A stretch of DNA of 40,395 nucleotides from a virus: IMG/VR virus record IMGVR_UViG_3300033273_000131, positions 1 through 40,395 of that record; one strand, given 5' to 3'. The notes under the pieces are model-generated. The model made no database searches. It was not told the DNA's origin and saw only the letters and a list, made by a program, of their open reading frames with translations. Of this stretch, positions 2,179 to 40,395 are shown in pieces. Position 1 is the first letter of the stretch, and every line of letters starts with the position of its first letter. A program made the position numbers and the translations under genes.

Positions 2179-2196
2179 CTTCTATTCTCCTTAGTC

Positions 2197-2209
2197 CAGA
2201 ATTATTCTG
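2197..2209. promoter_or_regulatory. Perfect 13-base palindrome in the gp18 leader
   Basis: On the transcribed strand it reads CAGAATAATTCTG, with a 6-base arm on each side of one central base. If the late promoter starts transcription near 2208, the hairpin sits at the extreme 5' end of the gp18 mRNA, ahead of the AAGGAG ribosome site. It could protect the transcript end, but it could also be chance in AT-rich sequence. Confidence 0.45.
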
Positions 2210-2213
2210 AAAT

Positions 2214-2221
2214 TATTTATT
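2214..2221 (-). promoter_or_regulatory. T4-type late promoter for gp18
   Basis: AATAAATA on the minus strand, one base from the T4 late consensus TATAAATA. It lies in the only gap of this neighbourhood (2179-2260), with a predicted start near 2208 and a leader of about 30 bases. Late transcription in T4-like phages uses the gp55 sigma with gp33 and the gp45 clamp. Confidence 0.7.
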
Positions 2222-2260
2222 AAAAATTGTAGTTTGAACGGGGAAACCGTGCGTGAACCG

Positions 2261-2491
2261 CTACCAGTCAGGATATTCCCACATTCCTGAGGATAGTGGT
2301 TTCTTTTTATTGGACAAAACTCTCTTTTTAGTACATTCCTTACACTCATAAGAATAAGCAGAAGGTAAAGCACCCCTACCCTTTCTAGTCAGGTAAAAGT
2401 CATCTATCAAGTTCTTAGTCTCACCACAAACTCTACACTTCCTATCAAAAAGAAGAATGTGTTCTAAGTTTATCTGGTCATCTAAGTCCAT
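2261..2491 (-). CDS. Small zinc-binding (two CxxC) protein
   Basis: A 76-residue protein with CRVCG near residue 18 and CKECTK further on. The two CxxC pairs are about 30 residues apart, suggesting a single zinc site of the treble-clef or HNH-like ribbon kind. I see no HNH catalytic histidines, so a nuclease role is not supported. The frame is open from a GTG at 2506. I chose the ATG at 2491 because it overlaps the gp17 stop as TGATG, the junction style of this cluster, and has a weak GGGA 9 bases upstream. It sits between gp17 and gp18, adjacent in T4, so it is an insertion relative to T4. Function unknown; DNA or RNA binding is plausible. Confidence 0.7.
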   Translation of the reverse strand: MDLDDQINLEHILLFDRKCRVCGETKNLIDDFYLTRKGRGALPSAYSYECKECTKKRVLSNKKKPLSSGMWEYPDW

Positions 2492-4134
2492 CAATAGTAG
2501 TCCCACATGTAAGAACGGTCACCATATTCATCAGTATGCCACCTATCACCAGACTCATCAACAAATGTACTTTCATCCAAACCATCTAAGATAAAACCAA
2601 ATGGAGCCATATCTTGTTCTATCTGGTTTTTTTGTTCTTCATAAATTCTCTTACGAATATCATTACTGGTCATCTCCTTGAAATAGTCTTGAGCAACCAA
2701 CCAAGAGAAGATAACAAGACACATTGCTAAGTCATCATTACATCCTTCTTCTGCTTCAAAGGAATTGTGACGCTGGGCAAATGTGGTAAGTTCTGATATA
2801 ATGTCATAGTCAACTGTTAACAACTTATCGTCTTCCAAGAAAGTCTTTAAGTTGGAGCATCCCAACTTTTTCACCGCAGCAGTCATCCTCACACCCATCT
2901 GCGACTTCTTACCTGAGAATCCGTGTCCAACCACCTGACCAGCACGACCTCTCATCGCAGCCATCAACATGTTTTCATATTCTAAGTCGTAGTGTAAGAT
3001 ATTAGCAACTTGTTCACCAATATCATTAACTTCAATCAACAACCAAGCATTATTATATCCCTTTGCTACATCAAGAATAACATTTGGAAATAGCATAGGT
3101 TTGATTTCATTGTTCCTATACTTTGCCACTACCTTGTAAGGAAATTGGGTAATATCGAAAACAATAAACGCAGAATAGTCATTGCCCAACCCACGGGCAA
3201 CGTCTACAGTGATCATATAGTTGTGCTCAGGTTTTGCCTTCTCGTAAATATCGAGACCAGCATTCCTTTGTATCGGGTCCTCATATACTAAGTTTCTTAG
3301 TTTTGCTGGGTTGATGAGTGTATTAACCGAACCCAAGAACTCACACTCAAACTCAACCTTAAACTGTTGTTCTGAAGTGTTGGCAATGGTTTGCTCTTTC
3401 CATGCCTCATCACGACCAGGAACTTCAGACCAGTGAACGTCTGTAGGTAAATATTCATTCTTACCCTTCTCCGCATCATGCCACATGCGGTAGAAGTGAT
3501 TCATACCCCTAGGGGTAGAAACGATAATTACTTTTGTGCTCTGTCCAGAAGAAATAGTAGGATAAACAGAGGCAAAGAAGTCATCAGCAATGTGATTCGG
3601 GATGAACGCGAACTCGTCAAGAAAGATGACATTATAGGATCCGCCTCGGACAGCAGATGAAGAAGTAGAGTTAGACGAAATCTTGGAGCCATTTTCGAGT
3701 TCTAAACTACCTTTGTTCCATGATATAATACCCTGTTGCATCCACTTTGGCAAGTTTTCGTATGCAAGTTGTAACCTTCCGAGAAGGTCTCTAGCAGTGG
3801 ATGCTTTGTTTGCTAGGATGGCGATGTTAACATTATCGTTAAAAACAGCGTAGTGTAGAAGATATGATACACAAGTAGTAGACTTACCAGTCTGACGTGG
3901 CATCTTACAAATATTAAATCTGTTATCATGGAAATTCTGAATTAGTTTTTCCTGAAACGGATACATATTGAAAGGCACTAGACCATGGTCAAGAGACACG
4001 ATCTTGATATAGTTTCTAGCAAAATAAACTGGGTCTTCTTTACACTTGAGGAACTCAATAATTCTATCTTCAGTCCATTCAATAGGAGTATTGGCTTTTT
4101 TGAGCAGAGGATTGCCAAGATATACGTCACTCAT
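2491..4134 (-). CDS. gp17: Large terminase subunit gp17
   Basis: DNA-packaging motor ATPase and headful nuclease (547 residues; T4 gp17 is 610). Visible ATPase motifs are the Walker A segment RQTGKST at residues 80-86, the Walker B segment VIFLDEF at 169-175 with D173 and E174, and the coupling motif STPRG at 206-210. The C-terminal RNase H-like nuclease has its acidic residues at D311 (TVDVARG), E368 (IEVND) and D467/D468 (CNDDLA), spaced as in T4. It docks on the portal and cuts concatemeric DNA. The start is ATG at 4134 with TAGGAG 7 bases upstream, 15 bases after the preceding gene. The stop overlaps the next start. Confidence 0.97.
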   Translation of the reverse strand: MSDVYLGNPLLKKANTPIEWTEDRIIEFLKCKEDPVYFARNYIKIVSLDHGLVPFNMYPFQEKLIQNFHDNRFNICKMPRQTGKSTTCVSYLLHYAVFNDNVNIAILANKASTARDLLGRLQLAYENLPKWMQQGIISWNKGSLELENGSKISSNSTSSSAVRGGSYNVIFLDEFAFIPNHIADDFFASVYPTISSGQSTKVIIVSTPRGMNHFYRMWHDAEKGKNEYLPTDVHWSEVPGRDEAWKEQTIANTSEQQFKVEFECEFLGSVNTLINPAKLRNLVYEDPIQRNAGLDIYEKAKPEHNYMITVDVARGLGNDYSAFIVFDITQFPYKVVAKYRNNEIKPMLFPNVILDVAKGYNNAWLLIEVNDIGEQVANILHYDLEYENMLMAAMRGRAGQVVGHGFSGKKSQMGVRMTAAVKKLGCSNLKTFLEDDKLLTVDYDIISELTTFAQRHNSFEAEEGCNDDLAMCLVIFSWLVAQDYFKEMTSNDIRKRIYEEQKNQIEQDMAPFGFILDGLDESTFVDESGDRWHTDEYGDRSYMWDYY

Positions 4135-4149
4135 AATAAAACTCCTAAA

Positions 4150-6033
4150 TTAGCATTTCCAGCGACGACGGGCTTTGCAGATTGCTTTATCTGGGGTCTT
4201 AGAGCAATCGATGTTGTGCATCTTTCTCTGACCATCAGAGCGAGAGCAGAAAGACTTACGTCTCTTTGCATCCTTACTACCTTTCTTAACTTTACCAGTT
4301 ACGGCAGTCTTAAGTTTGGAACCTGGGTTCTCACGCTTGTAAGCATTAACTGCTTTCTGACTCATACCATCAGTCTTATCTTTTCTGTTGACTCTCTGCC
4401 AGTCTTCAATAAGTTCACCTTCTGGTTCGAAGTGTGCTACCTGAGTGGTTTTCTTAGCAGATGCCTTTTTTACAGGGATAGACTTTCTAATATTTTCAAT
4501 TCTATCATAGAGATAGTTGGGATCTTGAACTGGTCCTGTCTCACGACCGCCATATGGTTTCCATCCAGGCATTCCTTTATCACCAGCACCAGCATATTTC
4601 TCAGATAACTCTTCTCTCCAGTTGGAATGTCCTTCCTTCACACAGTTGGGAACCATCTTCCCACCCTTCTTCTTCATACCAACTTGCTTATAACCAACCC
4701 AACACTTTTCTTCGATCTTTTGAAGTTTTGAAGGTGGAACTTGAATAGGATCGGGAGTAATTAAGTCAGTTGTTTCAAACTCAGTTGGTTGGAAGTCATC
4801 TCTCCAGTTGGAGAACTCATAACCTTCTTTTTTACTCTTATTTCCCCAGTTCTTAGCACCAACTTTACGGCACTTGACTAGAGCACCTGAAGCATAAGCA
4901 CTTGGCCAAACAGAATAGCGTGACTTAACCTTGTAGTAGCAAGCGTCCTTTTTACCTTCTTCTTTAACCAGTTCACCTTCAGGTTCAAATGAATCTTTTG
5001 CAAACTCGGGTCTGGGTCTTCCAAAGAATTTATTATAAGCATCACTTGTTGATGGATTATAAGTTTTTTGTCCAGTTTGTTTGATGTTACCGGTGTATCC
5101 TCCACCTGCTGCGTTGACATCGTTTACGTTTTTTCTGAGTCTTCTGACTTGAATATCGTATGCATCCTGTGCGATGCGGATGGGATTGGGAATACCATAT
5201 CCACCAATTGTGGGTCCAATAAAACCATCACCTGGTTTACCATCTCGGATTTGTTCAACAAGTTCACCTTCAGGTTGATAGTGTGCTAGTTTCAAACCAG
5301 TCAAAGAATCGATACCTGGTTTGTTTCTTGGATCTAAAGGTTTTGGAGGTCTTTGCCCACCAGTAGGAGATGTATCACTATTACGACCCTTCAGATCTTT
5401 ATACTGTGCGTCTGGTTTGTTGTAAACCTCAGCAAGTTCTTGTCTCCAGTTAGAATAAGAGTCGGTTACCATCTTTGCTTTACCTTTTCTGTTGGGGTTT
5501 GGATCTTCTCTGCGTTTTTTATCTGTTCTTCTGTTTCTCTCTTTCTTACTCATTGATGCTCTGTCATCAGCATCACGGCAGAAAGGTTTTGTCTTCTGTC
5601 CAGGTTGTTTAGCACAAGGTTTACCATCATATTTACCACCTGCCTGAACCCATCCGCCACCTTTGAACCAGTCACGGAGAGAGTAACCTTTGTCCTTGGC
5701 AGACTTACCGTCACGCTTGCCTTCTTGAATAGTTTCCTCGTTCACTTTCTTTCTACCTTGACAGTGTGCTCTTTGTGAGAAACCTTTTGGATTCTTACAG
5801 TCGATAGACTTCTTATATTTCTCAGACCAACCTTCGCTTACTGCTCCACCATCCGCATTATCACCATTACCGTTCCCTTTTTTCTTGGATTCGGTATCAC
5901 CATTATCTTCAGACTTTTCTTCTTCCTTCTCTTTACGCAACCAACCACCCAGTCCTACACGGTAACCGCTAGGAATCTTTTTACACTTTTTATCATCGTA
6001 GCAGTAATAATAACCCTGCTTACACTTCTTCAT
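4150..6033 (-). CDS. Modular basic Cys-rich protein between the terminase subunits
   Basis: A 627-residue, very Lys/Arg/Gly-rich protein of unknown function. It is built from Cys-containing modules: CKQGYYYCYDDKKC (4-17), a SIDCKNPKGFSQRAHCQGRKK block (76-96), a WVQAGGKYDGKPC block (128-170), a DACYYKVKSRYSVWPSAYASG block (363-397), a CWVGYKQVGMKKKGGKMVPNC block (444-464), and a C-terminal KRRKSFCSR...RRRWKC block (590-627) resembling DUF6321. Linkers repeat the motifs PEGELVE (254, 351, 537) and SNWR-E-L (194, 408, 470). I recall such modules, singly, in marine phages and giant viruses. No enzymatic motif is visible. The ATG overlaps the gp16 stop as ATGA. Nucleic-acid binding or an internal head protein are guesses from the charge and location. 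Confidence 0.85.
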   Translation of the reverse strand: MKKCKQGYYYCYDDKKCKKIPSGYRVGLGGWLRKEKEEEKSEDNGDTESKKKGNGNGDNADGGAVSEGWSEKYKKSIDCKNPKGFSQRAHCQGRKKVNEETIQEGKRDGKSAKDKGYSLRDWFKGGGWVQAGGKYDGKPCAKQPGQKTKPFCRDADDRASMSKKERNRRTDKKRREDPNPNRKGKAKMVTDSYSNWRQELAEVYNKPDAQYKDLKGRNSDTSPTGGQRPPKPLDPRNKPGIDSLTGLKLAHYQPEGELVEQIRDGKPGDGFIGPTIGGYGIPNPIRIAQDAYDIQVRRLRKNVNDVNAAGGGYTGNIKQTGQKTYNPSTSDAYNKFFGRPRPEFAKDSFEPEGELVKEEGKKDACYYKVKSRYSVWPSAYASGALVKCRKVGAKNWGNKSKKEGYEFSNWRDDFQPTEFETTDLITPDPIQVPPSKLQKIEEKCWVGYKQVGMKKKGGKMVPNCVKEGHSNWREELSEKYAGAGDKGMPGWKPYGGRETGPVQDPNYLYDRIENIRKSIPVKKASAKKTTQVAHFEPEGELIEDWQRVNRKDKTDGMSQKAVNAYKRENPGSKLKTAVTGKVKKGSKDAKRRKSFCSRSDGQRKMHNIDCSKTPDKAICKARRRWKC

Positions 6034-6464
6034 TTATTTGCTTCTGGGTTATTATTATTTAGAAAACCTTGCTTAAGTAGTTTCTGAAGTTCTGTTGTAG
6101 ACCCAACAAATACAGCATTATTGGTGACTGTACTTGGTCCTTTATTGCCAACATCTTCTTCCACATCTTTTAGTTTCTTCTGTAAGTCAATCAACTTATC
6201 TGTGGTATCTGCTACACTCTTGATAAGTTGTCCAGCAACTTCATATGCTCTTGGACTTCCACCTTCACCAGCAAGTTCCATGATTCCATTGATAGCCTCC
6301 TGACCCTTCTCAATCAAAGAATACAAGTTTGCTCTTGTATACTCATAGTCTTTTGAGATGTCAGTCTTTTGTTCAGGTTTTTGAATACTCTTTGGAGCAC
6401 CATCAACCTCAACAATGCTACTCTCAACATTCAGAGCGTCATCAATAGAATCAAATTCAGACAT
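6030..6464 (-). CDS. gp16: Small terminase subunit gp16
   Basis: A 144-residue protein assigned as the DNA-recognition subunit of the terminase, which loads the packaging motor and stimulates the gp17 ATPase. Support comes from position (gp15, then this gene, then gp17 one gene later), length close to T4 gp16 (164), and a central helical, coiled-coil-like segment at about residues 45-105 (for example LIDLQKKLKDVEED). The N-terminus is acidic and low-complexity, and the tail is Asn-rich. The start at 6464 is 6 bases after the gp15 stop. Its stop is shared with the next start as ATGA. Unlike in T4, gp17 does not follow directly. Confidence 0.85.
   Translation of the reverse strand: MSEFDSIDDALNVESSIVEVDGAPKSIQKPEQKTDISKDYEYTRANLYSLIEKGQEAINGIMELAGEGGSPRAYEVAGQLIKSVADTTDKLIDLQKKLKDVEEDVGNKGPSTVTNNAVFVGSTTELQKLLKQGFLNNNNPEANK
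6056..6063 (-). promoter_or_regulatory. Candidate late promoter inside the gp16 3' end
   Basis: TCTAAATA on the minus strand, containing the CTAAATA form I recall for cyanophage late promoters. The predicted start is near 6050, giving a 17-base leader to the ATG at 6033. It lies within gp16 coding sequence, so the match may be coincidental. Confidence 0.35.
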
Positions 6465-6470
6465 AAGTTA

Positions 6471-7274
6471 TCAAATATCAGATTGTTGTGTAGGACTATA
6501 TGACTTGGAATCACCAAAATATTCCCAAGTTTCTGTGAAACCAAAGTCATCGCCTGGGTTAGCGTCGATAGGATCTGGAACTGCTGTGTATCTGACTTCT
6601 CTCTTCGCAGTCGCAGTATTTGTATCTGCGTACATATCAACAATAACCTTACGAATAAGACCTTCTGGGTTATCAGCAACAGGACCGAAGAGATAAGTTT
6701 TTGCAGTAAACTGTAAAGTATATATTAGTGCTCTTCTTGTGGAAAAATCTCCCTCATAGTCATCTTGCATTCCAACACTGTTCAAAACAACTGGAATATC
6801 TCTCTTCTCTCCAATTGAGTCTACTAAGTCTATAGTTAGATTGAATGATGGTTGGAAGTATGGAAGAATCTGCTCAACTATCTGTAGAGCATCATCATTC
6901 AACTTACAGAAGATACTCAGTTCAAAACCGATGTTATACGGAACAGGCATAAACACCTTCTTCATTTTTGAGGTGTTTTCATCAACTGCTCTGAATGTTT
7001 GAGTAATACCAGTCTTTCTAGAAGCATCATACTCAATAGAAGTCATCTCAAATGACATTCTGGGTAGAGTAATCTGAACTGGTTTGTCTAGGTTTGCTTG
7101 TTGTTCAAGTCTTGCTAAGAACTTCTGAGCAGGACCATACGCCAAAGGAACTTTGATGACACTGTTAGTATTTCCACTACCATCCTTGTGATGAATGTCC
7201 AAGTCATTGAACAATGTACCAAAAGCGATAATAGTTTTACGAATAATTTCGTGGTAGTAGTAAGTTCCTAACAT
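6471..7274 (-). CDS. gp15: Tail completion / sheath stabiliser gp15
   Basis: A 267-residue protein matching T4 gp15 (272 residues). That protein forms the terminal hexamer at the head-proximal end of the tail and connects to the neck. The N-terminus MLGTYYYHEIIRKTIIAFG followed by a LFNDLDI segment is characteristic of gp15 in cyanomyoviruses. The protein runs through the expected beta-rich body, with SFEMTSIEYDASRKTG around residues 70-90. The start codon overlaps the gp14 stop as TAATG, so it is probably coupled to gp14 translation. It completes the 13-14-15-16 order. Confidence 0.93.
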   Translation of the reverse strand: MLGTYYYHEIIRKTIIAFGTLFNDLDIHHKDGSGNTNSVIKVPLAYGPAQKFLARLEQQANLDKPVQITLPRMSFEMTSIEYDASRKTGITQTFRAVDENTSKMKKVFMPVPYNIGFELSIFCKLNDDALQIVEQILPYFQPSFNLTIDLVDSIGEKRDIPVVLNSVGMQDDYEGDFSTRRALIYTLQFTAKTYLFGPVADNPEGLIRKVIVDMYADTNTATAKREVRYTAVPDPIDANPGDDFGFTETWEYFGDSKSYSPTQQSDI

Positions 7275-9529
7275 TAGTAAGTACCAAAGGGATTAGATTC
7301 CGAGAAGTCAATAATTCTGTCTGCCTGGACTTCAAACTCTTCGTTTTCTCTGTATTTATCTGTTACTGTGTTCGCAGCAGACACTTTGATTTCATAAGCA
7401 GCACCAGACTTAGCACCAGTAACCACTTCTCCAGAGTAGAAACCACCAGTTGTAATACCAACTCTGAGAATATTAGTATCGGTATCCCATTTCTTGACCC
7501 TGGCAGATGCTCCAGATATGGAACCAGTAACAACTTCGTTGAACCAATATGTTCCAATACCAGTTGTAGCGGCAGCTCCGACTGTAACTGTTGGAGCTCC
7601 TGTATATCCCAAACCAGCGTTTGTTATATTAATGGAGGTTACATTACCAGAAGAATTAATACTGGCAACAGCAGTTGCGGTAGTCAATCCTGTATTATAA
7701 ATCTTATTCGCAATGCTATTTCCTATACTTATTGTCGGTGCGGAAGAATAATTAAGTCCAGGATTAGTTATCGTGATTCCAGTAACGATACCAGCAGAAC
7801 TTACATTTGCTGTTCCAGTTGCAGTTACTCTTTCACCACCATTGAAGAATACTGTATTTGCTAAATTTTCACTTGTAGATGTAGGTAAAGTAGGTTGTGT
7901 AATTGAACCATCACTTGTAAATCTTAATTCATCTACAAATACTTGACCGTCTGAAAAATCGCCATCTGCGTTTAAATTAAATCCATTACCATTGTAAATT
8001 TGAGTGTGGAATGTTTGAGATGAATAAGTTGATTGGAATGTTCCACTTGACCCCATATAATGAATAGCAACTTGATTAAAACCTGAACTTGTTTGTGATA
8101 ATCTAATCCAATTCCATCTATTTAAATCACTAGCAAAAGTTGATGTAATTGTTAACGCTGTTGTTCCAGAAGAAGAATCACTTGATGGTCTATAATAAAA
8201 TAATTGTTGTGAACCACTTAATGTTTGAACATCTATTCTGTATTGTTCATTACCAGCGTCATTTGAACCCCAACGAGCAATTGTTCTACTTGTACCCTCT
8301 GCTGGTGCCTCAGTAACATAGAACCAAAACTCAACTGCACCTTCATCACTAGCACTTAAACCTGTTGTAGATATTAACGTACCAGAGTCACCACCATCAT
8401 AAGCTCTACTACCAAATTTAACCGTATTTGTCTCATTACCACCGCCTGTTGGATCACTAAATGTAACTGATGGTGAAGATGATGGAATATAGAACCTACC
8501 ACCATTTGTTATGGTAGTATCAGTAACTGTTCCTGCTGCACTAACAGTAGCAGTTGCAGCAGCTCCAGGACCTGTAGGAGCACTGAATGTAATCAATGGA
8601 ACAGTTGCATATCCTGAACCATCATCAGAAATAGTAACAGAGTTTACACCACTGAAGGATGTTACAATACCACATGTAGCAGCGGCACCAGTTCCACCTC
8701 CACCACTAATAGTAATAGTTGGTGCTACAGTATACCCAGCACCAGCGTTAACAAGACGTATCTCTTTAATAGAGGTGATGTTATTTCTAGTTGTGGTAAT
8801 AGCAACTGCGCTGGCATTAGTTCCACCAGAAGGTGCTGTTGTAATAGCAACCGTTGGCGTACTTGTAAAACCAGAACCATCATTATTCAATGTGATTGAC
8901 TGGATGAAACCTGATGCAATAGTGGCAGTTGCTGTTGCTCTGGTTCCACTTGAGAACAAGGTTAGGTCAACAATGTAACCCTTATCATCAAGAATCTCAT
9001 CTACCTCATCAATAGAAGTATCGAATACTTCATCCTCATATTCGAAGAGTTCACATTGAAGTTCATAAACATAGTTTTTACCTAACTGGTAAAAGGGTTT
9101 TTCGTGCTCAACAAATTTTACTTCAAAAAGTCTTTTACCTAATGGAAAATAAACTAAGTCTCCTTCTCTTGGTCTATCAAAAATAGTTATTTCATTATCA
9201 TCCTCATCCTCTAGAAAAGGAGAGATAAAGTCTTCAAAACGTTCTCTCGAAACAACTAGCGATAGTTCATCTCTGACGCTAACACCAAACTTGGTCATGA
9301 TGTCGCCAGCACCACTATAACCATCATAGTTATTGACATATGCTTCCAATAAGAAGTTATCATCAAACTTTGATGACTGAAGTTCTTCAAGAATAGTTTG
9401 TACTCTGACAAACTTCCTAGGTATATACAAAACTTCTATGCCATAGATCTTGAGTTGCTCATTAATCAACTCTTGAACTAGGTTTTGCTCTCCAGAAGAG
9501 CCTTGTAGAAAGAAGGGGTTAAGTGCCAT
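7274..9529 (-). CDS. gp14: Neck protein gp14 with a large inserted LamG-like and repeat region
   Basis: The first ~180 residues (MALNPFFLQGSSGEQNLVQE, then PREGDLVYFPLG and YELQCELFEYEDE) and the last ~40 (YRENEEFEVQADRIIDFSES) read as the head-to-tail neck protein gp14, which in T4 is 256 residues. Here the protein has 751. Between the two ends lie repeats of the type DGSG(F/Y)-x-(S/A)-x-P-x-V/I (about residues 215-350 and 585-665). They surround a LamG/concanavalin-like domain (about 366-563: AVEFWFYVTE, RWNWIRLSQTSS, FVDELRFTSDG). The LamG stretch is AT-richer than its flanks. Two GxxSGA-A modules follow near 671 and 700. TAATG junctions join it to gp13 and gp15. The insert may decorate the neck and bind glycans; that is inference. 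Confidence 0.9.
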   Translation of the reverse strand: MALNPFFLQGSSGEQNLVQELINEQLKIYGIEVLYIPRKFVRVQTILEELQSSKFDDNFLLEAYVNNYDGYSGAGDIMTKFGVSVRDELSLVVSRERFEDFISPFLEDEDDNEITIFDRPREGDLVYFPLGKRLFEVKFVEHEKPFYQLGKNYVYELQCELFEYEDEVFDTSIDEVDEILDDKGYIVDLTLFSSGTRATATATIASGFIQSITLNNDGSGFTSTPTVAITTAPSGGTNASAVAITTTRNNITSIKEIRLVNAGAGYTVAPTITISGGGGTGAAATCGIVTSFSGVNSVTISDDGSGYATVPLITFSAPTGPGAAATATVSAAGTVTDTTITNGGRFYIPSSSPSVTFSDPTGGGNETNTVKFGSRAYDGGDSGTLISTTGLSASDEGAVEFWFYVTEAPAEGTSRTIARWGSNDAGNEQYRIDVQTLSGSQQLFYYRPSSDSSSGTTALTITSTFASDLNRWNWIRLSQTSSGFNQVAIHYMGSSGTFQSTYSSQTFHTQIYNGNGFNLNADGDFSDGQVFVDELRFTSDGSITQPTLPTSTSENLANTVFFNGGERVTATGTANVSSAGIVTGITITNPGLNYSSAPTISIGNSIANKIYNTGLTTATAVASINSSGNVTSINITNAGLGYTGAPTVTVGAAATTGIGTYWFNEVVTGSISGASARVKKWDTDTNILRVGITTGGFYSGEVVTGAKSGAAYEIKVSAANTVTDKYRENEEFEVQADRIIDFSESNPFGTY
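7353..7360 (-). promoter_or_regulatory. Candidate late promoter inside the gp14 3' end
   Basis: GATAAATA on the minus strand, predicted to start near 7347 and give a leader of about 73 bases to gp15. It falls in coding sequence (codons for T-D-K-Y), so it is only a motif match. Confidence 0.35.
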
Positions 9530-10386
9530 TATCCAATAAAGTCGAGAGGTGGTAGTTCATAATCAAGAGACATTCTTGCCTGAATCTCATCTATTTCTCT
9601 TTCAGCATCATCGTATAGTTGTCTACCATTGAGTTCAATACCACCAGGAAGTTTTACTCCATTGAACTTAATTAGGTTCTGACCCCACTGACGTTTGATG
9701 AGTGCTGTCAGATATCTCTTTAGGAAACTATCGTTATATACTCCAGTATACGTTGCTGGGTCTAGTATCCTATGACAGTCAATGACAATGTAGTCATTTT
9801 CACTGATAGTTCCCCAGTCAACATCTAGGTATAGTCTATCTTGTCTTTTATTATATCTTACTTGCTTCTCTGGAGTTAGTAGAAAATCAATATCCTCCAA
9901 GTAAGTCTTGGTCATTGAATATTGGAGAAGTTCAACTGAGTTGAAATAGTATAGATCGTTCAAGAACAGTTGGTACTTGATACTAAACATGCTTCCAGAA
10001 ATGGAACTAGTATCAAACTTAAAAATTCTTTCGATTCCAATAACCGAATCTGGAACCTGGATAAAGTTTGAGGTTTCGTAGTAGTTTGAGATTGTTGTCC
10101 CATATCCACTAATAGATGTGGATGTAGCACTCGTGGTTACGATACCTGCTGTATTTGTGCTAGAACTATGATTCTTTGCCGTTCCTCTATCAATATCTGC
10201 CTGAGTAAACCTGTACTTCAAGTACATTCTCTCAACACCATCAAAATGACGCTCTTGGAAATATTGGAGAGCATCATCTACCAGGTCGTCAATTTGATCA
10301 TCATCAACGTTGATCTCCAGAACTGGAGCACCCAAACGCCTCTTACAGTAATCAATAAGTCCTTGGCGTGTTGATGGTTTTGCCAT
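9529..10386 (-). CDS. gp13: Neck protein gp13
   Basis: A 285-residue head-completion/neck protein (T4 gp13 is 309). It forms the ring below the portal that joins head and tail and seals packaged DNA. The N-terminus GLIDYCKRRLGAPVLEINVDDDQIDDLVDDALQ, recognised in pieces, with YFQERHFDGVERMYLKY after it, is the hallmark of gp13 in T4-like cyanophages. A short Ser/Thr-rich insert (about residues 75-100) interrupts the body. GAGGA lies 6 bases before the ATG at 10386, inside the end of the preceding gene, whose stop overlaps this start as TAATG. Confidence 0.95.
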   Translation of the reverse strand: MAKPSTRQGLIDYCKRRLGAPVLEINVDDDQIDDLVDDALQYFQERHFDGVERMYLKYRFTQADIDRGTAKNHSSSTNTAGIVTTSATSTSISGYGTTISNYYETSNFIQVPDSVIGIERIFKFDTSSISGSMFSIKYQLFLNDLYYFNSVELLQYSMTKTYLEDIDFLLTPEKQVRYNKRQDRLYLDVDWGTISENDYIVIDCHRILDPATYTGVYNDSFLKRYLTALIKRQWGQNLIKFNGVKLPGGIELNGRQLYDDAEREIDEIQARMSLDYELPPLDFIG

Positions 10387-10607
10387 TAGAATTCCTCAGC
10401 AGATAAATTATCCGTCTTTTGTGTAGGTTTTTTTCTTGATTTTAATTTACTCAACTCGTTTTCTTGCTCAGCAGTTTTCTTTTTGAGAGCCTCAATAGTT
10501 TGGTTAGCAACCATAACTTTTGCTTCTAAAGCAACAGTCTGAGAAAACAGATCCGATGCCTTTTGTTGATATACAAGAATCAGACTTCTATAATCAGTTT
10601 CATTCAT
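10386..10607 (-). CDS. Small coiled-coil protein upstream of gp13
   Basis: A 73-residue protein starting MNETDYRSLILVYQQK. Residues about 15-55 form a heptad-like helix (VALEAKVMVANQTIEALKKK and on), followed by a basic tail. The frame is open to a GTG at 10640, but that codon lies in the stem of the upstream terminator. I therefore chose the ATG at 10607, just beyond the T-run. No Shine-Dalgarno is evident. It is the first gene after the late promoter at 10644-10651 and is coupled to gp13 by TAATG. No T4 counterpart recognised. A small structural or assembly helper is likely from its place in the operon. Confidence 0.75.
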   Translation of the reverse strand: MNETDYRSLILVYQQKASDLFSQTVALEAKVMVANQTIEALKKKTAEQENELSKLKSRKKPTQKTDNLSAEEF

Positions 10608-10616
10608 AGTTGATAC

Positions 10617-10641
10617 AAAAAAAGGTGGGACAATGCCCACC
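10617..10641 (-). terminator. Intrinsic terminator after the fibre gene
   Basis: Read on the minus strand: GGTGGG, loop CATTGT, CCCACC, then seven T. A perfect 6-base stem plus a T-run 25 bases after the fibre stop codon is a classic rho-independent terminator. It overlaps the next late promoter's start site (see findings). Confidence 0.85.
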
Positions 10642-10643
10642 TG

Positions 10644-10651
10644 TATTTATA
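10644..10651 (-). promoter_or_regulatory. Consensus late promoter for the neck-packaging operon
   Basis: A perfect TATAAATA on the minus strand. With T4 spacing the transcript begins at about 10638, inside the terminator stem. It would serve the coiled-coil gene, gp13, gp14, gp15, gp16, the modular protein and gp17. Confidence 0.85.
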
Positions 10652-10665
10652 ATGTCTAGTTAATA

Positions 10666-12555
10666 CTAGAACGAACCGCCGTCTACGGTTATATTTTCTA
10701 AGGTTCTTGTTGAACCGCTACATGTAATGACCGTTTGACTGTTTCCTTGACAATCGGATACGGTCAATGCTCCAATTTCAAGGTTAGCATATGTGATACT
10801 TCCCATAACGCTGCTGGACTCTGTTACTTCAGAAGCAACAACAATTCTTCCAACACTGTCATCCCAGAACATCGCAGCGGTCTTAGCAGAACCGCTGTAG
10901 TAGTGCATTACGAGACCAACGTCAATGTTGGCGTCGGAAGAAGGAGCAACCAGAGAACCACCAGAGTTGACTAGACCAACTTCAACCAGAGAGTCTTCAA
11001 CTTTCAGGGTCTCAGTGTTAATGATAGACTGAGTTCCAAGAACCGTCAGGGTTCCATTAACTGTCAGGTCATCAGCAACTGTTGTTGTTCCAGAAGTCGA
11101 ATCGAGAGTTAAACCACCAGAAGAGGTTGAAACAGTGTTGCCGTCGATGGTAACATTATCAATAGCGGCGTCACCAGTTACGGTGAGTGTTGTACCATCG
11201 AATGTGAGGTTTCCACTGTCTTCTATAGCACCAGAAGTGCCAGCAAGAACAACACGACCAGAAGTTAGGTCACTAACAGTGGCAGATGAAAGTGTAGTTT
11301 CTCCACCAGAGATATTAGCGCCACCATTGAAGTCAACAGCACCAGTTACAGTCAGACCAGCACTAACAACAGCATCTTTGGTGACTGCGATAGAATCGGT
11401 GATAGTTGCATCACCAGTTACTGTTAGAGTAGAACCATCAAAGGTTAGGTTACCACTGTCTTCTAGAGCACCAGAAGTACCAGCAAGAACAACTCTTCCT
11501 GAGGTCAGGTCGCTAACGGTTGCGGATGATAGGGTTGTTTCTCCACCAGAGATGTCTGCACCACCATTACCGTCTATAGCACCAGTTACGGTGAGAGCAC
11601 TACCTACAGAGGCATCCTTGGTAACTGAGATAGAGTCGGTAACTGATACGTCGCCAGTTACAGTTAGAGTAGAACCATCAAAGGTTAGATTTCCACTGTC
11701 TTCTAGAGCACCACCTGTTCCTGCAAGAACAACTCTTCCAGAAGTAAGATCTTCTACTGTAGCAGAAGCAAGAGAAGCTTCTCCACCAATATCTAAACCA
11801 CTATCAAAAGTACCAATACCAGCAAAGTTAGCGTGTCTCCACTGTTTGGTAGCATCTCCACCAACGTCGTATGTGTTATCGTCGTTTGGAACAAGACTTG
11901 AGACAAACTCACCAGCAACATTGATGTCATCGGTGTTGGCATCACCAAGGTTGATTGTTCCACCCTTGAATGTTACAACACCAACGAACTCAGAATATCC
12001 TTGAACGTTTAGGTTTCCACCAACGGTTACGTTTTTATCAACACCAAGACCACCATCTATTTGGAAAGCGCCAGTGTTGGAATTGCCTAGGGTATTATCT
12101 GTTGTATTTGTTACTGTAGTAACACCAGAAATATTAACATCACTATTGATATCTACAAGTGTTGTATTGAAAGTAGCAATACCAGTGAAGACTGGATCGG
12201 CAGATCCACTTCCCCAACTTAGGTTTCCACTTCCATCGTTTGTTAGAACACTACTTGACGCACCTTGAGTTCCTGGGAAGTAGTATGTTACAATACCAGC
12301 AAGAGATGCTGGAGATGCAAGAGTAATGTAACTTGAACCGTTACTAGTTCCCTCAACAAGGTTAACACCAGAACCTGTTGATGAAGTTTCGACAGTCCAA
12401 AATCTTCCAGAACCTACAAACTGGTTATTTGCAGAAGTAGAGTCAATACCTACGTATAGATCATACTTGTCAGTTGTAAAACCGGGTTCACCTGCCCTCA
12501 ATCCTGGGAGATTGCTAAAAAGACCCCTCTTAAACTGTAATACAGGAGCAGCCAT
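10666..12555 (-). CDS. Tail fibre-like protein with tandem repeats
   Basis: A 629-residue fibre-like structural protein. The N-terminus (LQFKRG...LPGLRAGEPGFTTDKYDLYVG) is the attachment type seen in fibres with a major-tropism-determinant-like N domain. The middle is low-complexity Gly/Ser/Thr/Val beta-repeat sequence. It includes two and a half near-identical 80-residue units (DLTSGRVVLAGT..., LEDSGNLTFDGSTLTVTGD). The C-terminus (about 520-629) is unique and ends TRTLENITVDGGSF. No S74 chaperone domain is seen. The start at 12555 follows AAAAGG about 11 bases upstream and a late promoter at 12579. The gene occupies the T4 gp11/gp12/wac region, so it may be a short fibre or whisker analogue. 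Host receptor binding is inferred. Confidence 0.85.
   Translation of the reverse strand: MAAPVLQFKRGLFSNLPGLRAGEPGFTTDKYDLYVGIDSTSANNQFVGSGRFWTVETSSTGSGVNLVEGTSNGSSYITLASPASLAGIVTYYFPGTQGASSSVLTNDGSGNLSWGSGSADPVFTGIATFNTTLVDINSDVNISGVTTVTNTTDNTLGNSNTGAFQIDGGLGVDKNVTVGGNLNVQGYSEFVGVVTFKGGTINLGDANTDDINVAGEFVSSLVPNDDNTYDVGGDATKQWRHANFAGIGTFDSGLDIGGEASLASATVEDLTSGRVVLAGTGGALEDSGNLTFDGSTLTVTGDVSVTDSISVTKDASVGSALTVTGAIDGNGGADISGGETTLSSATVSDLTSGRVVLAGTSGALEDSGNLTFDGSTLTVTGDATITDSIAVTKDAVVSAGLTVTGAVDFNGGANISGGETTLSSATVSDLTSGRVVLAGTSGAIEDSGNLTFDGTTLTVTGDAAIDNVTIDGNTVSTSSGGLTLDSTSGTTTVADDLTVNGTLTVLGTQSIINTETLKVEDSLVEVGLVNSGGSLVAPSSDANIDVGLVMHYYSGSAKTAAMFWDDSVGRIVVASEVTESSSVMGSITYANLEIGALTVSDCQGNSQTVITCSGSTRTLENITVDGGSF
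11161..11790 (-). repeat. 240-base tandem repeat inside the fibre gene
   Basis: Copies begin at about 11161, 11401 and 11641 (the third partial), exactly 240 bases apart. Shared stretches include the segments at 11221-11280, 11461-11520 and 11701-11760. They encode 80-residue units with motifs VVLAGT, NLTFDGS and TLTVTGD. Such repeats can lengthen or shorten a fibre by recombination. Confidence 0.9.
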
Positions 12556-12578
12556 CTTTTAACGTTACCTTTTTTATC

Positions 12579-12586
12579 TATTTATC
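12579..12586 (-). promoter_or_regulatory. Late promoter for the fibre gene
   Basis: GATAAATA on the minus strand in the 43-base gap between the 88-residue gene and the fibre gene, one base off consensus. It sits in the loop of a short inverted repeat (TATCTA / TAGATA). Confidence 0.7.
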
Positions 12587-12598
12587 GTAGATAGAAGT

Positions 12599-12865
12599 TT
12601 AAAACGCACCGTAATCGATAGCATCATCATCCGTGTTATCTGCCAGGTCTAGTATTTGTGCCGCAGTAACATGAATATATTCTGTTCCATTGAACAACAT
12701 AACTGTATTAGTTCCTCTATCGGTAATATTAACATCACCAACACTAGACATTTGATCGACTGTTCCTACAGCAGCAGACTGGTTAGATGATACAACTTTA
12801 ATAGCATTTTGTTGACCTACTCTTACTGTTGTTGTATTGTTGTTGGTTCTTACTTTAATTGCCAT
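12599..12865 (-). CDS. Small cyanophage structural protein (88 residues)
   Basis: An 88-residue protein beginning MAIKVRTNNNTTTVRVGQQNAIKVV and ending with an acidic segment (NTDDDAIDYGAF). I remember very similar proteins, KVRT..TTTVRVGQ at the start and DDD-IDYG-F at the end, next to fibre genes in marine cyanophages, always unnamed. There are no membrane or enzyme motifs and beta structure is likely. The start overlaps the stop of the preceding gene as TAATG. The context between baseplate and fibre genes suggests a virion component. Confidence 0.8.
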   Translation of the reverse strand: MAIKVRTNNNTTTVRVGQQNAIKVVSSNQSAAVGTVDQMSSVGDVNITDRGTNTVMLFNGTEYIHVTAAQILDLADNTDDDAIDYGAF

Positions 12866-13206
12866 TAGAACTTGGTTACTCCTGCCCTTACTAGTGCCAT
12901 TCCTTCAACAACTCTAGTCATAACAGATGCAGTATCTGTTATGACCACATCATACACATAGCGACCCTCTTTCAATGCTGCTGTTTGTGATGTTGACAGA
13001 CCAATTTTGATCTGACCAGCACTAGCATTAAAAATGGATGATGTAAAAGTAGTCACACCAGTAGCACCTGCGTGCTTTCTCATTTGAGACTTAACGCTAT
13101 AACCAGTCAAACTGAGTACCGAGTTTGTAGTACCATCTTCCAAAGTAAACACTTGACTGAAGTCAGTCCCAGCATTAATTTGAATATTACTGACGTATAC
13201 TGCCAT
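12865..13206 (-). CDS. Small virion protein, BppU/Ig-like fold suggested
   Basis: A 113-residue protein with the pattern INAGTDFSQVFTLED, LTGYSVKSQMRK, TSQTAALKEGRYVYDVVI and VEGMALVRAGVT. This reads like the small beta-sandwich proteins of baseplate upper-protein N-domain type: tethered polymer plus a G-R-Y-x-Y-D-V strand. I recall homologues beside fibre genes in cyanomyoviruses. It is translated as a pair with the 88-residue gene (TAATG). A late-promoter motif precedes it at 13228. A fibre or baseplate accessory role is inferred from position. Confidence 0.8.
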   Translation of the reverse strand: MAVYVSNIQINAGTDFSQVFTLEDGTTNSVLSLTGYSVKSQMRKHAGATGVTTFTSSIFNASAGQIKIGLSTSQTAALKEGRYVYDVVITDTASVMTRVVEGMALVRAGVTKF

Positions 13207-13227
13207 TTTTTAAGTGGTCTTTAGAAG

Positions 13228-13235
13228 TATTTATG
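13228..13235 (-). promoter_or_regulatory. Late promoter overlapping an upstream stop codon
   Basis: CATAAATA on the minus strand. It includes the TAA stop of the 59-residue gene, with a start predicted near 13222 and a leader of about 16 bases to the ATG at 13206. Confidence 0.6.
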
Positions 13236-13410
13236 CTAAACCAGAGATAGCAAAGTTCTTGATAACTTCTTGCTGCTTCAGATAAAGTTTATAATAAGAT
13301 TTTGCACAGTTTCGCAATTCATCAACATTTAGTTCATCAATAAGTCGAGAGTACTTTTCATACTCAAACATTTTATTCATCGACTCTAGTTGGATTTTGT
13401 CTGGGTCCAT
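13231..13410 (-). CDS. Small helical protein (59 residues)
   Basis: A 59-residue, mostly helical protein (MDPDKIQLESMNKMFEYEKYS, then LRNCAKSYYKLYLKQQEVIKN). The frame is open to an upstream ATG at 13443. I chose the ATG at 13410 because GGAG lies exactly 7 bases before it, inside the preceding gene. This makes a 38-base overlap with that gene. I recall small proteins with the core MNKMFEYEK and KLY-KQQE in cyanophages near the baseplate genes, without a known function. A chaperone or accessory role is only a guess. Confidence 0.75.
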   Translation of the reverse strand: MDPDKIQLESMNKMFEYEKYSRLIDELNVDELRNCAKSYYKLYLKQQEVIKNFAISGLA

Positions 13411-13594
13411 TGATGATCTCCATAAGTAGGGATTTGATTTCACTAATATCGTCTTTTATCTGGTCGATTTCCTCTCTTTGTTTTTTTCTCTCTGCTCTCA
13501 ATTTAACATATTGTAAATACTCTGCAGTATCAGTATTTACAATAGCACCCGAGTCTTCACGAAACAGGTGCTTATGACCTTCAACTCTCTTCAT
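13373..13594 (-). CDS. Small coiled-coil protein (73 residues)
   Basis: A 73-residue protein starting MKRVEGHKHLFREDSGAIVNTD. It is followed by a charged coiled-coil helix, about residues 28-60 (KLRAERKKQREEIDQIKDDI and on), and a short tail. The N-terminal H-L-F-R-E/D-x-x-(S)-G-A-I-V-N pattern is one I associate with small cyanophage proteins of unknown role. The start is one base after the stop of the 2347-residue gene (TAATATG). Its last 38 bases overlap the next gene. Probably co-expressed with the baseplate genes. Confidence 0.8.
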   Translation of the reverse strand: MKRVEGHKHLFREDSGAIVNTDTAEYLQYVKLRAERKKQREEIDQIKDDISEIKSLLMEIINGPRQNPTRVDE

Positions 13595-13595
13595 A

Positions 13596-16500
13596 TTATG
13601 CTAGGGCAATAGTTCTCAGATCCTTGAATCTTGGAGCTCTTGCTTCGTTTGTTCCACTCATAACAATCTTGATCCTGAAAGCATTGAACTGTTCAAGTTC
13701 ATCAGCACTAAACTGATACTCAAGGAACTCACCATCGTTGCTGGAGCGTACAAATGCGTCTGCTCTACCATTATTAAGGGTGGAGTCAACAACCTTATCT
13801 CCATATCCGTCACCATTAGTATCGGTGAGGTTATCATATCCAGGGAACAACTCATATGCCTGCTCAACTCCGTTGGAGTCTGCTCTAAAGAGTTGATAAA
13901 GAACTCTGAAGTCAGCAGATGAGTGACGATATGAGGAAACCAGAACCTTGAGTGAAGTTGCTGGTTGCTGTAGTCTTACAATGCTAGTTGCATAAACAGC
14001 ACTGTGAGGATCTTCTTGAACTAGGTTGACTCTACCATCGTAAGCATAGTCACTTACTGGGTTGTTGAGTCTATTTCTACCAAATACTACAGATGCTGTA
14101 GAAACATTAACAGCAGGTGACAGGTTTGGATCTGTCGTTCCCATTGTCATTCCAAGTGTGAATGACTTGTTCTTAGGTAGAGATGAAAGTCTTGTGGTCT
14201 CGTTTATTTGAGATGCTACAAGTCTTGTTGTGGTTAGTTCATTAACATTATTGAGTTCAATAGTCTCATAACCTTGGTCAATGAATGATACTTCAGAACC
14301 ACCAGCACTTGTTCCAGAAACAGTTCTTATCTGAGCAGAAAGTGAAGTGCTTTCGCCAGGAGTCAGAATGCTGAACTGTGGGTCAACTCTGTTGAATTGA
14401 ATGTTCTTGGTTGCTGAAGCACCACTACCACCAACCATGTTCTCGTCGGTGAAGCTCAACTGGTTATCACCAGAAGTTCTGGAACCGCGACTAATTTGTA
14501 GGTGGTAAGTATCAAAGTCTCTCTTGTTCTTGAGAGCGGTGTCAGATGGTAGGTTATGTTGTGTGTTAATTCTGGTCAGTGAAATACCATTCAACTCATA
14601 AGGATAAACCTTATCACTGATATTATGCTTCCTAGTTAAGGAACTGTCAATGCCTCTGGTTCCAATACCCAGAGTTCCAGCACCACCGCCGCCAGCCGTA
14701 ATGGAGTTGTAGAAGATAATTTCGTTATTTACTTTCAAGTAACCTTGTGAAGTTGAAATACCTTCGAATGTTGCGAACAGTGATGTGTTAGCAACTGAGA
14801 TGGTAGTATCACTGATACCAAGATCAGCATTAAGTGTTGTTGGAGTAGTGTTTGGTTGCAAGTCCGCCAAGACAACAACATTATTATCGGCGTGCATACC
14901 GTGGTTTGGTTGTGTAACCTCAATAACTCTTCCATCATAAAGGTTACTGATAACAGAAGAGTTGCGAATATCGGTATTGGCGTATGCAACAGCGGTGTTT
15001 GTATCACTGTAAACAACCAAGTCTTGACCTTCTGTGAATGCTTCACCCTGAACGTTTGTTAGGAACAAAGTATCTTTTCCGCCGATAGAGTTGACGGAGA
15101 TCTGAGCATTCTTACCTTTAACTACACCCGAAGTTGTAATACCAAGGATATCACCAACAACATATCCATTTCCAGCAAGTGTGATTGCTGGGTTTCCAGA
15201 AACAACACCGCTAGAGAAAGTAACAATACCAGTAGCACCAGTGCCATTGCCTGTGATGGAGTAGAATGAAACGTCTGTGAATGTTCCATCACTGTATCCA
15301 GCACCAACTCTATTGGTAAAGGTAGTATCTAACTGACCACCAACCTGCTCAATATATCCAGTGATAGCAGAAGCAGATGTGCTGTCGCTAACCTTTCTAC
15401 CGATACCAAGAATGGTGTCCATTGAAGTGGTGGTTGTAATACCAACTTTCAGTTTTCTAGGTAGAGTCTTGATAGAGTTTTCGTTGAGTTGACCAACGTT
15501 TGTATCTCTGGTTCCAAGTGATGGGTTGTAGAAGTATGCTACACCAGGTGTTGTGGTAAAGTTTGCCTTATAAAGTTTGAACTTAAGATCTTCAAACTGG
15601 TTGGCAGTCCAAATAGTACCATTCTGAGACTTGAAGAGACTTCCTCCAACATACTGCTTGGTAGCAATAACACTTTCAGCATCAGGTAGAGTTGAAGTAT
15701 TGACAGTCTTCTCACCCATTCTAGCGATCCAAACTTCATAGAGGTCTGAATAAGGTGAGAGAAGAACCAGAGCATACTCAGTATCTGCTTCCAGATAAAC
15801 TGGGGATGGGAACTCAATCTTAGTCGCTACAGAAGCATCTCTAGAAGTTGCGATCTCCGATGGGTCAAGAGTAACTCTTGAGTATTCTGTTACCAGGTTC
15901 TTGGTAGGAATACCAAGTTCAACAGTTCTGAGTTCAACAAAGAGTTTTTCACTTTCATCCTTATTAGCGAAGAATACATCTACGCCAGTCATAAAGGCAC
16001 CAGTTTCATCAACAGTGAATGACTGTGCTAGTGGGTCATATCTTTCAACTTCGGTAATTCTTTCGAAGATGTTGATTCTACCAGTAGTTGTGTAGTTTGT
16101 TTCAGCACTACTGATAAGTGTACTTCCTGGTAGTTGCTCTTCGTTAGTAGCACTCGAAGTCAGTCTGAAAGTCTTAGTTCCAGTAGTAAATCTCAGTGGA
16201 GGTGGTGGAGATGCTAGTGGGTTTCTGAAGAACATCGAACCATAAATGTCACCGAATGTATCGGCAACAAGTCTGATATTAGCAACAGATGCTTGAGCAC
16301 CACTTGTTTCTCCGAGAAGAACCATTCCAGTGGTTAAATATCCATTATACTTACCAAGAACTTCTTCTTGAAGTGCCTCAACATCAACGTTTAGGACGGT
16401 TGATGAAGCGGAGTATGAAGCAGGTAAAGTAATGGACTTATTGTATGGGTTTAGACTAAATGTAGTCGTTGGGTTTCCGCCAGGACCAGTCTTGTGATTT

Positions 16501-19500
16501 GGTTGAACGACTCTACAAGTGAATAGGTTTGTTCCTCCAACATATCCTCTTACAGTCTCACCAACCTGGAATACTCCAGAGGTCATAGTGATTTCAACTA
16601 GTTTAGGAACAATGTCAAGACCACTAGTACTATCGAAGAAGTGATAATGTCTCGCCAAAGGTCTTAAACCAATAGCCTTAAACAGAACGTTTCTGGAACG
16701 AATGTGTGGATCTGGTGTAGAAGAAGCAAGAACAGTTCTTGTTCCAACAACCCTTGTAGCACCACCAGAACCACCAACAGTTCTCTGACCCCCATCTCTA
16801 ACAATAGTTCTGGTCCAACTATCAGTCTTTGGACTTAATTCAATAGAACCATTGAACTCGATAACATTGAATGGGTTTACATTCTCAACTCTTGTTGCTA
16901 ATGGTTGTTCAATCCAAGACTTTTCAGTGTACTTGAGAGTAATCAGGTCACCAGTCTTTTGAACATTAGAATCGAGGAGACTTAGGTTCTCACTGAAGTT
17001 GGCAGTTTCCAGGTTAATTGATGGATCAAGTGCTGGTTGTGGGGACAGTGAGTGGAAGTCAACTGGAGTCATAAGTTCATCAATAGCAGTATCAATATCT
17101 GCTGTTGTTTGTGCTCTATCCAGTCTTTGGTTATCTTTGAAGTCATCAACAAAGAAACCAGACTTAAATCTGTCTAATCCATCAACATCTCTGACTTGAA
17201 GAGTCTTAGTGTCGAGTTCGAGAAGTGAAAGTGAGGTTACAGTTTCTAGGTTTTCAACTCTATCCTCAATCTTTCCAATATCTCTCATCGTATATCTTCT
17301 ATTATCAACTACTGTGACTACAGCGTCACTAGTATCGTAGAGATATGCTGGTAGGGAAATGGTTCCAATTTCCATAGCATCATCAGTATTTGATGGTGCT
17401 TTTGGATTTACTGCTGAGGCACCCTTGATAACTCTAAAGGCACCTTCTTTGTTCAAGACTACCTTATCAATTCTTGGTAGATAGAAGTCATAACCAATCA
17501 GTGAACTTTCATTTGGGGCAACAACTAATGTTGGGTTAACACCAGCAGTAGCAAAGGTTCTGCTAGCAAAGTCAAATGGTGATAAAGTAGTAGATGTAAA
17601 CTGAGCAACTCTTGGTCTAAAGTCTAGAGTATCTGTTGCTCTTCTTCCATCACTCATCAATGGAATATCAGTCTTATATCTTTCTGCAGTGTATGAATTT
17701 ACAGTATAAAGGTTTCCAGCATCATTGGATGGGATGCTGTAGTGGTTGAAGATAATCATCAACCTGTGTGAAGGAATATAGTTATCTTTTGCTCTTACAA
17801 TTCTAGCGTAGTCGTAGAATTGATCTCTTACACCCTTATCTAAAGTATACTTATTTGTAATTTCCTGATAGTTTCCTTCATTCACTGCCTGAACAGTGGA
17901 GATGATGTTGGACTCACCGAATGTTGCAACCTCACCAACAACGAACTTGTTGGAGTTTAGGTAAACAATCTCAACCTTAGTAGCAGAAGATCTTGTTACA
18001 ACCTGAGCAATAGCACCACTGGTTGAACCAACAACTCTTTCACCAAGAACTGAGTTAGTGTTGAGTGCTAGACCAGCAGGGAATTCGATGGAGTCTAGAG
18101 TTGGAGCAGAAGTGTCGTAAGACTCATAAACTGCTAGAACTTCTACAACATCTGGGAAGTTCAAACAGATTTCTTTGTCCTGAACTCTTGTTCCATAATA
18201 AGCACTCTCAGTAAGACCACTAATAGCAGTGGATACACCAGAAATAGTCTTAGTAATATTGACTTTCTCACTTCTGGTGAAGTTCTTAGTCTTACTTGTG
18301 ATAGAGTTCTTCTTAACAGTTGTATTAACAGTAACATTAGAAGACTGAGAAGCAGTCAAACCTGTAAATGTAATAGTTTGACCATTAGAACCAAGAGAAA
18401 CTTGGTCTGAAGTCAGGTCTTCGATAGTTCCATCAGAATAGAAGACTCCATATCTTTCAGCATCAAATGTCTCAAAGAAAGCACTACTAATACCAGTAGA
18501 TGAAACACTAATGGTAAGAGAACCAGTAGAACTCGTTGTTTGTTGTTTGAGTTGACTGGATACTAATAGGTTAGAACCAGCAAGATTTACGGAAGCAACA
18601 TTCTCTTCTTCGAGTGGAGCAAATAGACCACCATTATCCTCTACTAATGGAGCAGCAATCGTGAATGTTACATCAGCATTGCTTCCAGGAAGACCACCAG
18701 TACATACACCACTAACATTTTCAACCTGAGCAACAGTCATACTATTGTCTGGGTTGACACTAACAACTCTGTTGAAAGTCTCATCAGAAAAACCAGGTCT
18801 CTGATATCTAATGATAGTATCACTCTTGATACCAACAAAGTTCTTACCTGGGCAGGTTACATTGCCAGCACTAGTAATTCTGATAGTATCAGCGATACCA
18901 AAGTTCTTTGGAGTCTTCTTCTGAAGAACTGAGTCAGCAATAAAGTCTAGACTCATATCAGAGTCAATACTATCAGAGTTCTGATAGATGGACTTAACAT
19001 CTTCAATACCGAAGGTTTGAACAACTCTAATAGATCTTGAGACTTCGCTAGTCCCATTAATTAGAATCTGCTCACCTTCTATAAATGTACCAGATGTTTG
19101 AATCAGGTTTAGGGTTGTGCTACCTCCAGGTGCAGTTTCAACATATCCAGTAGCACCACTACTTACACCTTTGATGTAAGAACTAGCAGGAACCTGGGTA
19201 GTAGTTACAGACTGGTTTAGAGTAATTTTAGTATAGGTTTGAATATCAAACAAATACAAGTCCCACTCAGAAGCAGCGTTAGAGTAGGAGGCATCACTCA
19301 GACTGAATGAATAAACTCTCGCTTTACCAATTTCAGTACCAGTTGCAGCAGTAGAAGAAGAACTTCTTCTTTGATTCTGTAGTCTAACAATATTTGAGTT
19401 ATTATTTACACCAAGAACTGGTGTACCTTGTACATTATTAACTCTTACTAAAGTTCCAAACTCAAATGGAATCAATGCAGATGAAATACTCTTCTTATCT

Positions 19501-40088: not shown

Positions 40089-40113
40089 AAAAAAAGGGAG
40101 GTTATTTCCTCCC
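40089..40113 (-). terminator. Intrinsic terminator after the right-end gene
   Basis: Minus strand GGGAGG, loop AAATAA, CCTCCC, then seven T and a further T-rich stretch. It is a perfect 6-base stem located 6 bases after the stop codon, and it insulates the GC-rich block from the upstream gene. Confidence 0.92.
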
Positions 40114-40119
40114 ATTTCT

Positions 40120-40395
40120 TTATGCGAACATGAACCCATTTTGGAATTCAAACTGATTAAACACAGGGGAAGTTCCTGCCTGTCCGATGAACTTATGAAC
40201 GAACCAATTGAAGTTCTTTTGAAATACACATTCACCCGCAATTCCATGCTCAGAGAGAATAGCATTCAGGCGGGACTTGGTGGTCTTTGACTGATAACCA
40301 CCGTCGAAGATCTGAACGAAGTCATCACCAACTACGGCAATAGTGTTGCCGTGAAGACGAACAATAGACTCGTTAGTTTCGGGGTCGTAAGTAAC
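40120..40395 (-). CDS. Cyanophage-type hypothetical protein (5' end cut by window edge)
   Basis: The last 91 codons of a gene entering from the right edge. Visible sequence: VTYDPETNESIVRLHGNTIAV, VGDDFVQIFDGGYQSKTTKS, RLNAILSEHGIAGECVFQKN and a tail ending FEFQNGFMFA. I recall small proteins with the GN-IA-V-DD-(F/Y)-(V/I)-Q-(I/L)-(F/Y)-D-GG-(Y/W) and KTTKSRLNAIL pattern in many marine cyanophages, function unknown. The start is outside the window. AT-rich codon use contrasts with the block downstream. A strong terminator follows. Confidence 0.85.
   Translation of the reverse strand, partial: VTYDPETNESIVRLHGNTIAVVGDDFVQIFDGGYQSKTTKSRLNAILSEHGIAGECVFQKNFNWFVHKFIGQAGTSPVFNQFEFQNGFMFA

Follow-up and report, generated by a model that had tools for sequence, protein, structure and literature searches.

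The window analysed here is a virus record of 40,395 nucleotides (IMG/VR record IMGVR_UViG_3300033273_000131), a 40-kb record by itself rather than a whole genome, and its closest cultured relatives are T4-like cyanophages. The genes for which coordinates are given here lie on the minus strand. Upstream of the junction under study is a gene for a 629-residue structural, fibre-like protein (10666–12555), which matches phrog_697. A preliminary description called it the fibre gene, and its counterpart at the same position in the cultured phage S-B05 is indeed annotated as tail fiber-like; the name is not firm, however, as the match is to a structural-protein PHROG. Downstream, the unit opens with a 73-aa ORF (MNETDYRSLI...; 10386–10607), whose start codon is conserved in relatives and which has no match in PHROG. 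There follow genes for a gp13-like neck protein of the head-tail adaptor Ad2 type (9529–10386; phrog_211), a gp14-like head closure protein with a long C-terminal extension (7274–9529; phrog_460), a gp15-like tail sheath stabilizer (6471–7274) and the small terminase (6030–6464). Past the small terminase, the order is a 627-aa protein without assignment, the gp17-like large terminase (2491–4134; phrog_2) and the tail sheath. The gp14-like protein is 751 residues long, and in its C-terminal part it has matches to fibre, baseplate and virion-structural families, as though further structural domains were added to it.

Read along the minus strand, the junction is organized as follows. The sequence TATAAATA at 10644–10651 is an exact match to the T4-type late promoter box, for which the consensus in T4-like cyanophages is NATAAATA (PMC2984593) and which in T4 occupies positions −13 to −6 (PMC1524935). 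A single base, C10643, separates the box from a hairpin with the 5′ arm AGGTGGG (10636–10642), the loop CATTGT (10630–10635) and the 3′ arm CCCACCT (10623–10629). The hairpin runs into seven Ts (10617–10623), which would serve both as the tail of an intrinsic terminator and as the U-rich part of the late leader; the first of these Ts also pairs with A10642. The preliminary description had placed the box correctly and had reported a perfect 6-base stem plus T7 directly after it. The hairpin and the T7 run are there, one base after the box, but the stem has 7 bp when the A10642–T10623 pair is counted, and 6 bp without it.

With the T4 box at −13 to −6, the predicted late +1 is G10638, inside the 5′ arm, with T10639 at −1; the arithmetic that had put the start near 10638 is thus right. 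The rule was worked out for T4 and E. coli polymerase and may differ for a cyanobacterial polymerase with cyanophage gp55. The consequences for folding are large. The whole hairpin, from 10642, has a ΔG of −11.0 kcal/mol (z = −3.1), and none of 200 shuffled sequences was equally stable. RNA beginning at 10638 retains 3 pairs and −3.4 kcal/mol, the 3-base stem that had been foreseen, and RNA beginning at 10637 has no pairs and a ΔG of 0. Median values over the relatives follow the same pattern: −12.3 kcal/mol for the whole hairpin and −4.2 kcal/mol for RNA started at +6 at the 73-aa ORF junction, and −12.7 and −1.8 kcal/mol, respectively, at the other junctions described below. The folding energies of the junction and of its relatives thus agree with the earlier claim that read-through RNA forms the full hairpin and late RNA a crippled one.

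Some mRNAs are protected by 5′ hairpins, and the structure could be imagined as a 5′ stabiliser of the late mRNA, with the start lying before the stem; a start 3 nt past the box would keep 6 of the 7 pairs. That arrangement would halve the box-to-start distance known from T4, its RNA would bear a full terminator about 25 nt from its own start, and a stabiliser does not need the T-run. We give this reading hardly any credence.

The junction has the features of both signals. As in an intrinsic (rho-independent) terminator, a perfect GC-rich stem with a short loop (within the usual 3–8 nt) and a T-run lies at the end of a co-oriented gene, and by number of G–C pairs this hairpin ranks first among the terminator-like structures in positions 1–20000 of the window. 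Unlike an ordinary terminator, its 5′ arm doubles as the start region of the next promoter. Bidirectional termination was considered and rejected, because on the plus strand the stem is not immediately followed by a T-run. Another strong intrinsic terminator is present on the minus strand at 40113–40096 (GGGAGG, loop AAATAA, CCTCCC and T7), just past an ORF ending at 40120; it has no late box and offers an ordinary terminator for comparison.

The box, its orientation and its position before late genes likewise match the cyanophage late promoter, with an 8-bp box on the coding strand. The window contains three copies of TATAAATA, where chance would give 1.24; the count is weak by itself, three or more being found in 17 of 100 shuffles. 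All three boxes are on the coding strand and immediately 5′ of an ORF. The other two (22216–22209 and 36415–36408) differ from the junction in having no hairpin downstream. The junction has no AT-rich segment downstream of the box and carries AGGTGGG there instead. This does not disqualify it as a late promoter, since the AT-rich start segment, although usual in T4, is a statistical preponderance rather than a strict need (PMC2988020).

A nucleotide search with the junction against cultured phages gave one weak match only, to an Aeromonas phage (E = 1), and we therefore turned to protein searches to find relatives. The 73-aa protein retrieved 22 loci, by protein alone and with neither box nor stem imposed on the search, and the element is present in all 19 that have upstream sequence. 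These 19 keep the box, the 1-nt gap, AGGTGGG...CCCACCT and the T7 run, and vary in loop and flanks. Loci found through gp13 together with the ORF contain 20 hairpin/box pairs no more than 150 nt apart; in 19 the stem begins 2–3 nt past the last A of the box, and the twentieth is the same hairpin scored against a second box. In the same loci, 18 of 22 strict terminators have a late box 1–2 nt before the stem. A pattern scan of IMG/VR, combined with the loci in hand, raises the number of distinct copies to at least about 95–98, a lower bound from a pattern that fixed the box and part of the stem and so biases the spacing. Where the downstream ORF of these copies can be read, it is nearly always a homologue of the 73-aa ORF, and the ORFs fall into at least 21 clusters, or lineages, with 27–73% identity between representatives.

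Among 45 distinct modules, the gap between box and stem is 1 nt in 36, 2 nt in 8 and 0 in one. The conservation of promoter–hairpin spacing, for which the preliminary description had proposed looking in relatives, is therefore found, in 19 of 19 loci and, at 1–2 nt, in 44 of 45 modules. The T-run is T5–T7 in nearly all relatives, the predicted +1 remains a purine (G or A), and in 33 of 33 copies the gene upstream runs in the same direction, with a median of 16 nt between its end and the promoter box. The flanks drift: over the 45 nt upstream of the element, the mean majority fraction across 21 lineages is 0.57. Kept in 19 of 19 protein-fetched relatives and in about 95 copies, the layout at this junction is, on these alignments, more than chance and no local accident. 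In diverged lineages, AACT (often ATAACT) is strongly conserved just 5′ of TATAAATA, perhaps as an extended promoter element.

The stem itself changes on both sides at once. Across the 45 modules, the pair at +2 is A–T or G–C, and those at +6 and +8 are each G–C or A–T, with one G–T cell overall. Because the +2 pair precedes the predicted start, it could as RNA structure be selected only through read-through RNA. Its upkeep speaks for selection on RNA arriving from upstream.

The element is not universal. A further 36 matches to the 73-aa ORF lack the exact pattern; three are near variants (L005, L010 and L071), a few are incomplete or split, and most of the rest have no box, no hairpin and an upstream stop codon close to the ORF start. 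In more distant relatives, promoter and terminator are both missing and the two genes run together. L076 has a box without a hairpin, and DSL-LC02 has no consensus box and a hairpin at a longer distance from a CTAAATA sequence. In the cultured phages S-B05 and S-B43, AATAAATA precedes a hairpin made up of AGAGGGTA, GCAA and TACCCTCT, with a T-run behind it; the layout is the same, the stem is a different one, and the gene pair lies away from gp13. In both, the fibre-like gene, the 73-aa-type ORF and the hairpin promoter are found between the ORFs on the small-terminase side and structural genes; on gene order, this cassette seems to have moved as a unit.

Two observations complicate the picture. 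In several relatives, a second GATAAATA lies about 20 nt upstream of the element and overlaps the stop codon of the preceding gene. RNA from such a box would include the entire hairpin, which counts against a start switch. The second late-box match arises at the stop codon of the gene upstream, where the sequence is often TGATAAATA (L005, L010, L018, L027, L159 and others). In L338, L343, L416 and P-SSM2, a stem of at least 5 bp remains after truncation at +6.

The preliminary description dealt with one site, and the layout recurs at many other junctions. Two more pattern scans with other stems, and clustering of the copies by downstream protein, gave at least 24 downstream families seen in two or more contigs, the 73-aa ORF family and at least 23 others; these scans fixed part of the stem and the spacing, so that the counts are lower bounds and the offsets are not free evidence. 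The families include endolysin, a tail tube protein, a gp25-like baseplate wedge protein, a homing endonuclease and a thioredoxin-domain protein. Within one family the stem sequences differ and the gap stays at 0–4 nt; the gp25-like family has 7 different hairpins in 8 contigs. The endolysin genes of L393 and nine other contigs are preceded by ATAAATA, CAGGAGG...CCTCCT, a T-run and the start codon, an arrangement that recalls the late control of T4 lysozyme. In L264 (16893–16860, minus strand) and its homologues L472 and L518, the element lies between a gp23-like capsid gene and a homing endonuclease gene; the L264 ORF ending in ...YYRRVKVANLM, before the endonuclease copy, is the one we take to be gp23. 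Here the element may travel with the inserted gene or insulate it.

Thirteen whole or near-whole records were also scanned: ten cultured phages including T4, a 174,830-bp contig and the IMG/VR contigs G007 and G015, the last three chosen because they carry the element. They contain 129 strict terminators, and in 7 of these a box lies at offset −4 to 0; the 20 permuted 7-mers used as controls, which are in part phase shifts of that motif, average 0.9. Genomes that were not picked for carrying the element have few copies of it (0–1 each). The T4 genome, scanned for the terminator form, has none, and Syn9 has only an unrelated box/hairpin pair, 22 nt apart.

It might be held that terminator and promoter are merely packed together in a compact genome, the in-arm start being without any separate function. 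The window has little intergenic space anywhere, and both signals fit in about 35 bp. Homologues without the element, however, save more space by letting the genes abut, and the GC-rich start segment departs from the AT-rich norm of T4 late promoters (PMC2988020). Moreover, in the energy scan the strict terminators near a box begin 0–4 nt past it, where the promoter's own RNA would escape; the exceptions are second boxes upstream of the same hairpin, L330 and Syn9 (−22), and the L330 box at −6 belongs to a AATAAATAAATA repeat that also gives −2. Mere packing is in our judgment unlikely.

Late starts inside hairpins, the nearest known counterpart of the present layout, have been described for T4 gene e (lysozyme), I-TevI, segB and mobE of Aeh1, for which RNA from upstream forms the full hairpin, and start sites are also sequestered in T4 soc and 49 (PMC3014915; PMC2988022). 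The junction resembles them in its TATAAATA-type late promoter, whose position would leave the 5′ part of the hairpin out of the late RNA, a geometry that at the junction holds by the T4 spacing rule only. A translational switch as in gene e, soc and I-TevI, the read-through hairpin hiding a ribosome binding site that late RNA frees, could thus be supposed here as well. The start-inside-arm geometry is documented in T4 (PMC3014915; PMC2988022), and the gene e sequence shows its late boxes. In addition, about 15 nt separate the end of the junction hairpin from the start codon, and some copies precede endolysin and homing endonuclease genes, classes so controlled in T4. The polarity is nonetheless reversed: the purine-rich, Shine-Dalgarno-like arm is the 5′ one, and the 3′ arm is pyrimidine-rich (purine fraction 0.09–0.14). 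Between the 3′ arm and the start codon, a Shine-Dalgarno-like sequence occurs in 0 of 32 junction copies and in 15 of 77 copies of the other set, and the T-run would be needless in a sequestering hairpin. Since no Shine-Dalgarno site is sequestered in the 32 junction copies, the hairpin is not of the T4 lysozyme translational type; sequestering was rejected as its main role, and we regard a translational switch as very improbable. Where the T4 hairpins hide a ribosome binding site, the junction's is terminator-like, with a T-run and no hidden site. The parallel lies in the geometry rather than in the regulated step, and the element looks like a transcriptional version of that scheme. Our literature searches on T4-like phages turned up no precedent for a promoter whose start lies within a terminator, although earlier mention is possible.

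We propose, with a probability of about 0.7, that the site is a fused terminator and late promoter, for which the insulator and start switch envisaged in the preliminary description, and partly supported here, is the best reading. The scheme would operate as follows. Polymerase coming from the upstream structural gene would copy the whole hairpin and the T-run and be released, ending that transcript. A gp55-type late sigma factor would recruit polymerase to TATAAATA, and transcription would start about 6 bases past the box, within the 5′ arm. The late RNA, without the outer half of that arm, would form no hairpin, pass the T-run and express the 73-aa ORF, gp13, gp14, gp15 and the terminase genes. 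The box–stem gap of 0–4 bases would let one short element stop foreign transcripts and spare its own. The efficiency of termination and the insulating role are, like the start point, what we infer from this arrangement.

It is tempting to go further and imagine a terminate-and-restart relay: after release at the T-run, the polymerase would not leave the DNA, and the late box would be the preferred place for its recapture. E. coli polymerase that has terminated at an intrinsic site in vitro is often retained on the template and is able to start again at a promoter close by (PMC6978380; PMC11347151); such retention makes recapture at the overlapping box possible, the predicted start being about 20 bp from the release point. 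Each late unit would then be reset to a fresh start, beyond mere separation, and the 0–4 nt gap in dozens of gene contexts would mark a dedicated cyanophage late-transcription element. The recycling on which this draws is an in vitro E. coli finding, and we think the relay rather unlikely.

If the fused terminator and late promoter functions as proposed, one short element would end one late unit and start the next without terminating itself, a transcriptional counterpart of the in-hairpin late starts of T4 that would be widespread among marine T4-like phages. It would account for separate expression levels among late genes that are tightly packed and co-oriented, and it would give a simple sequence rule for annotating the borders of late units in metagenomic phages.
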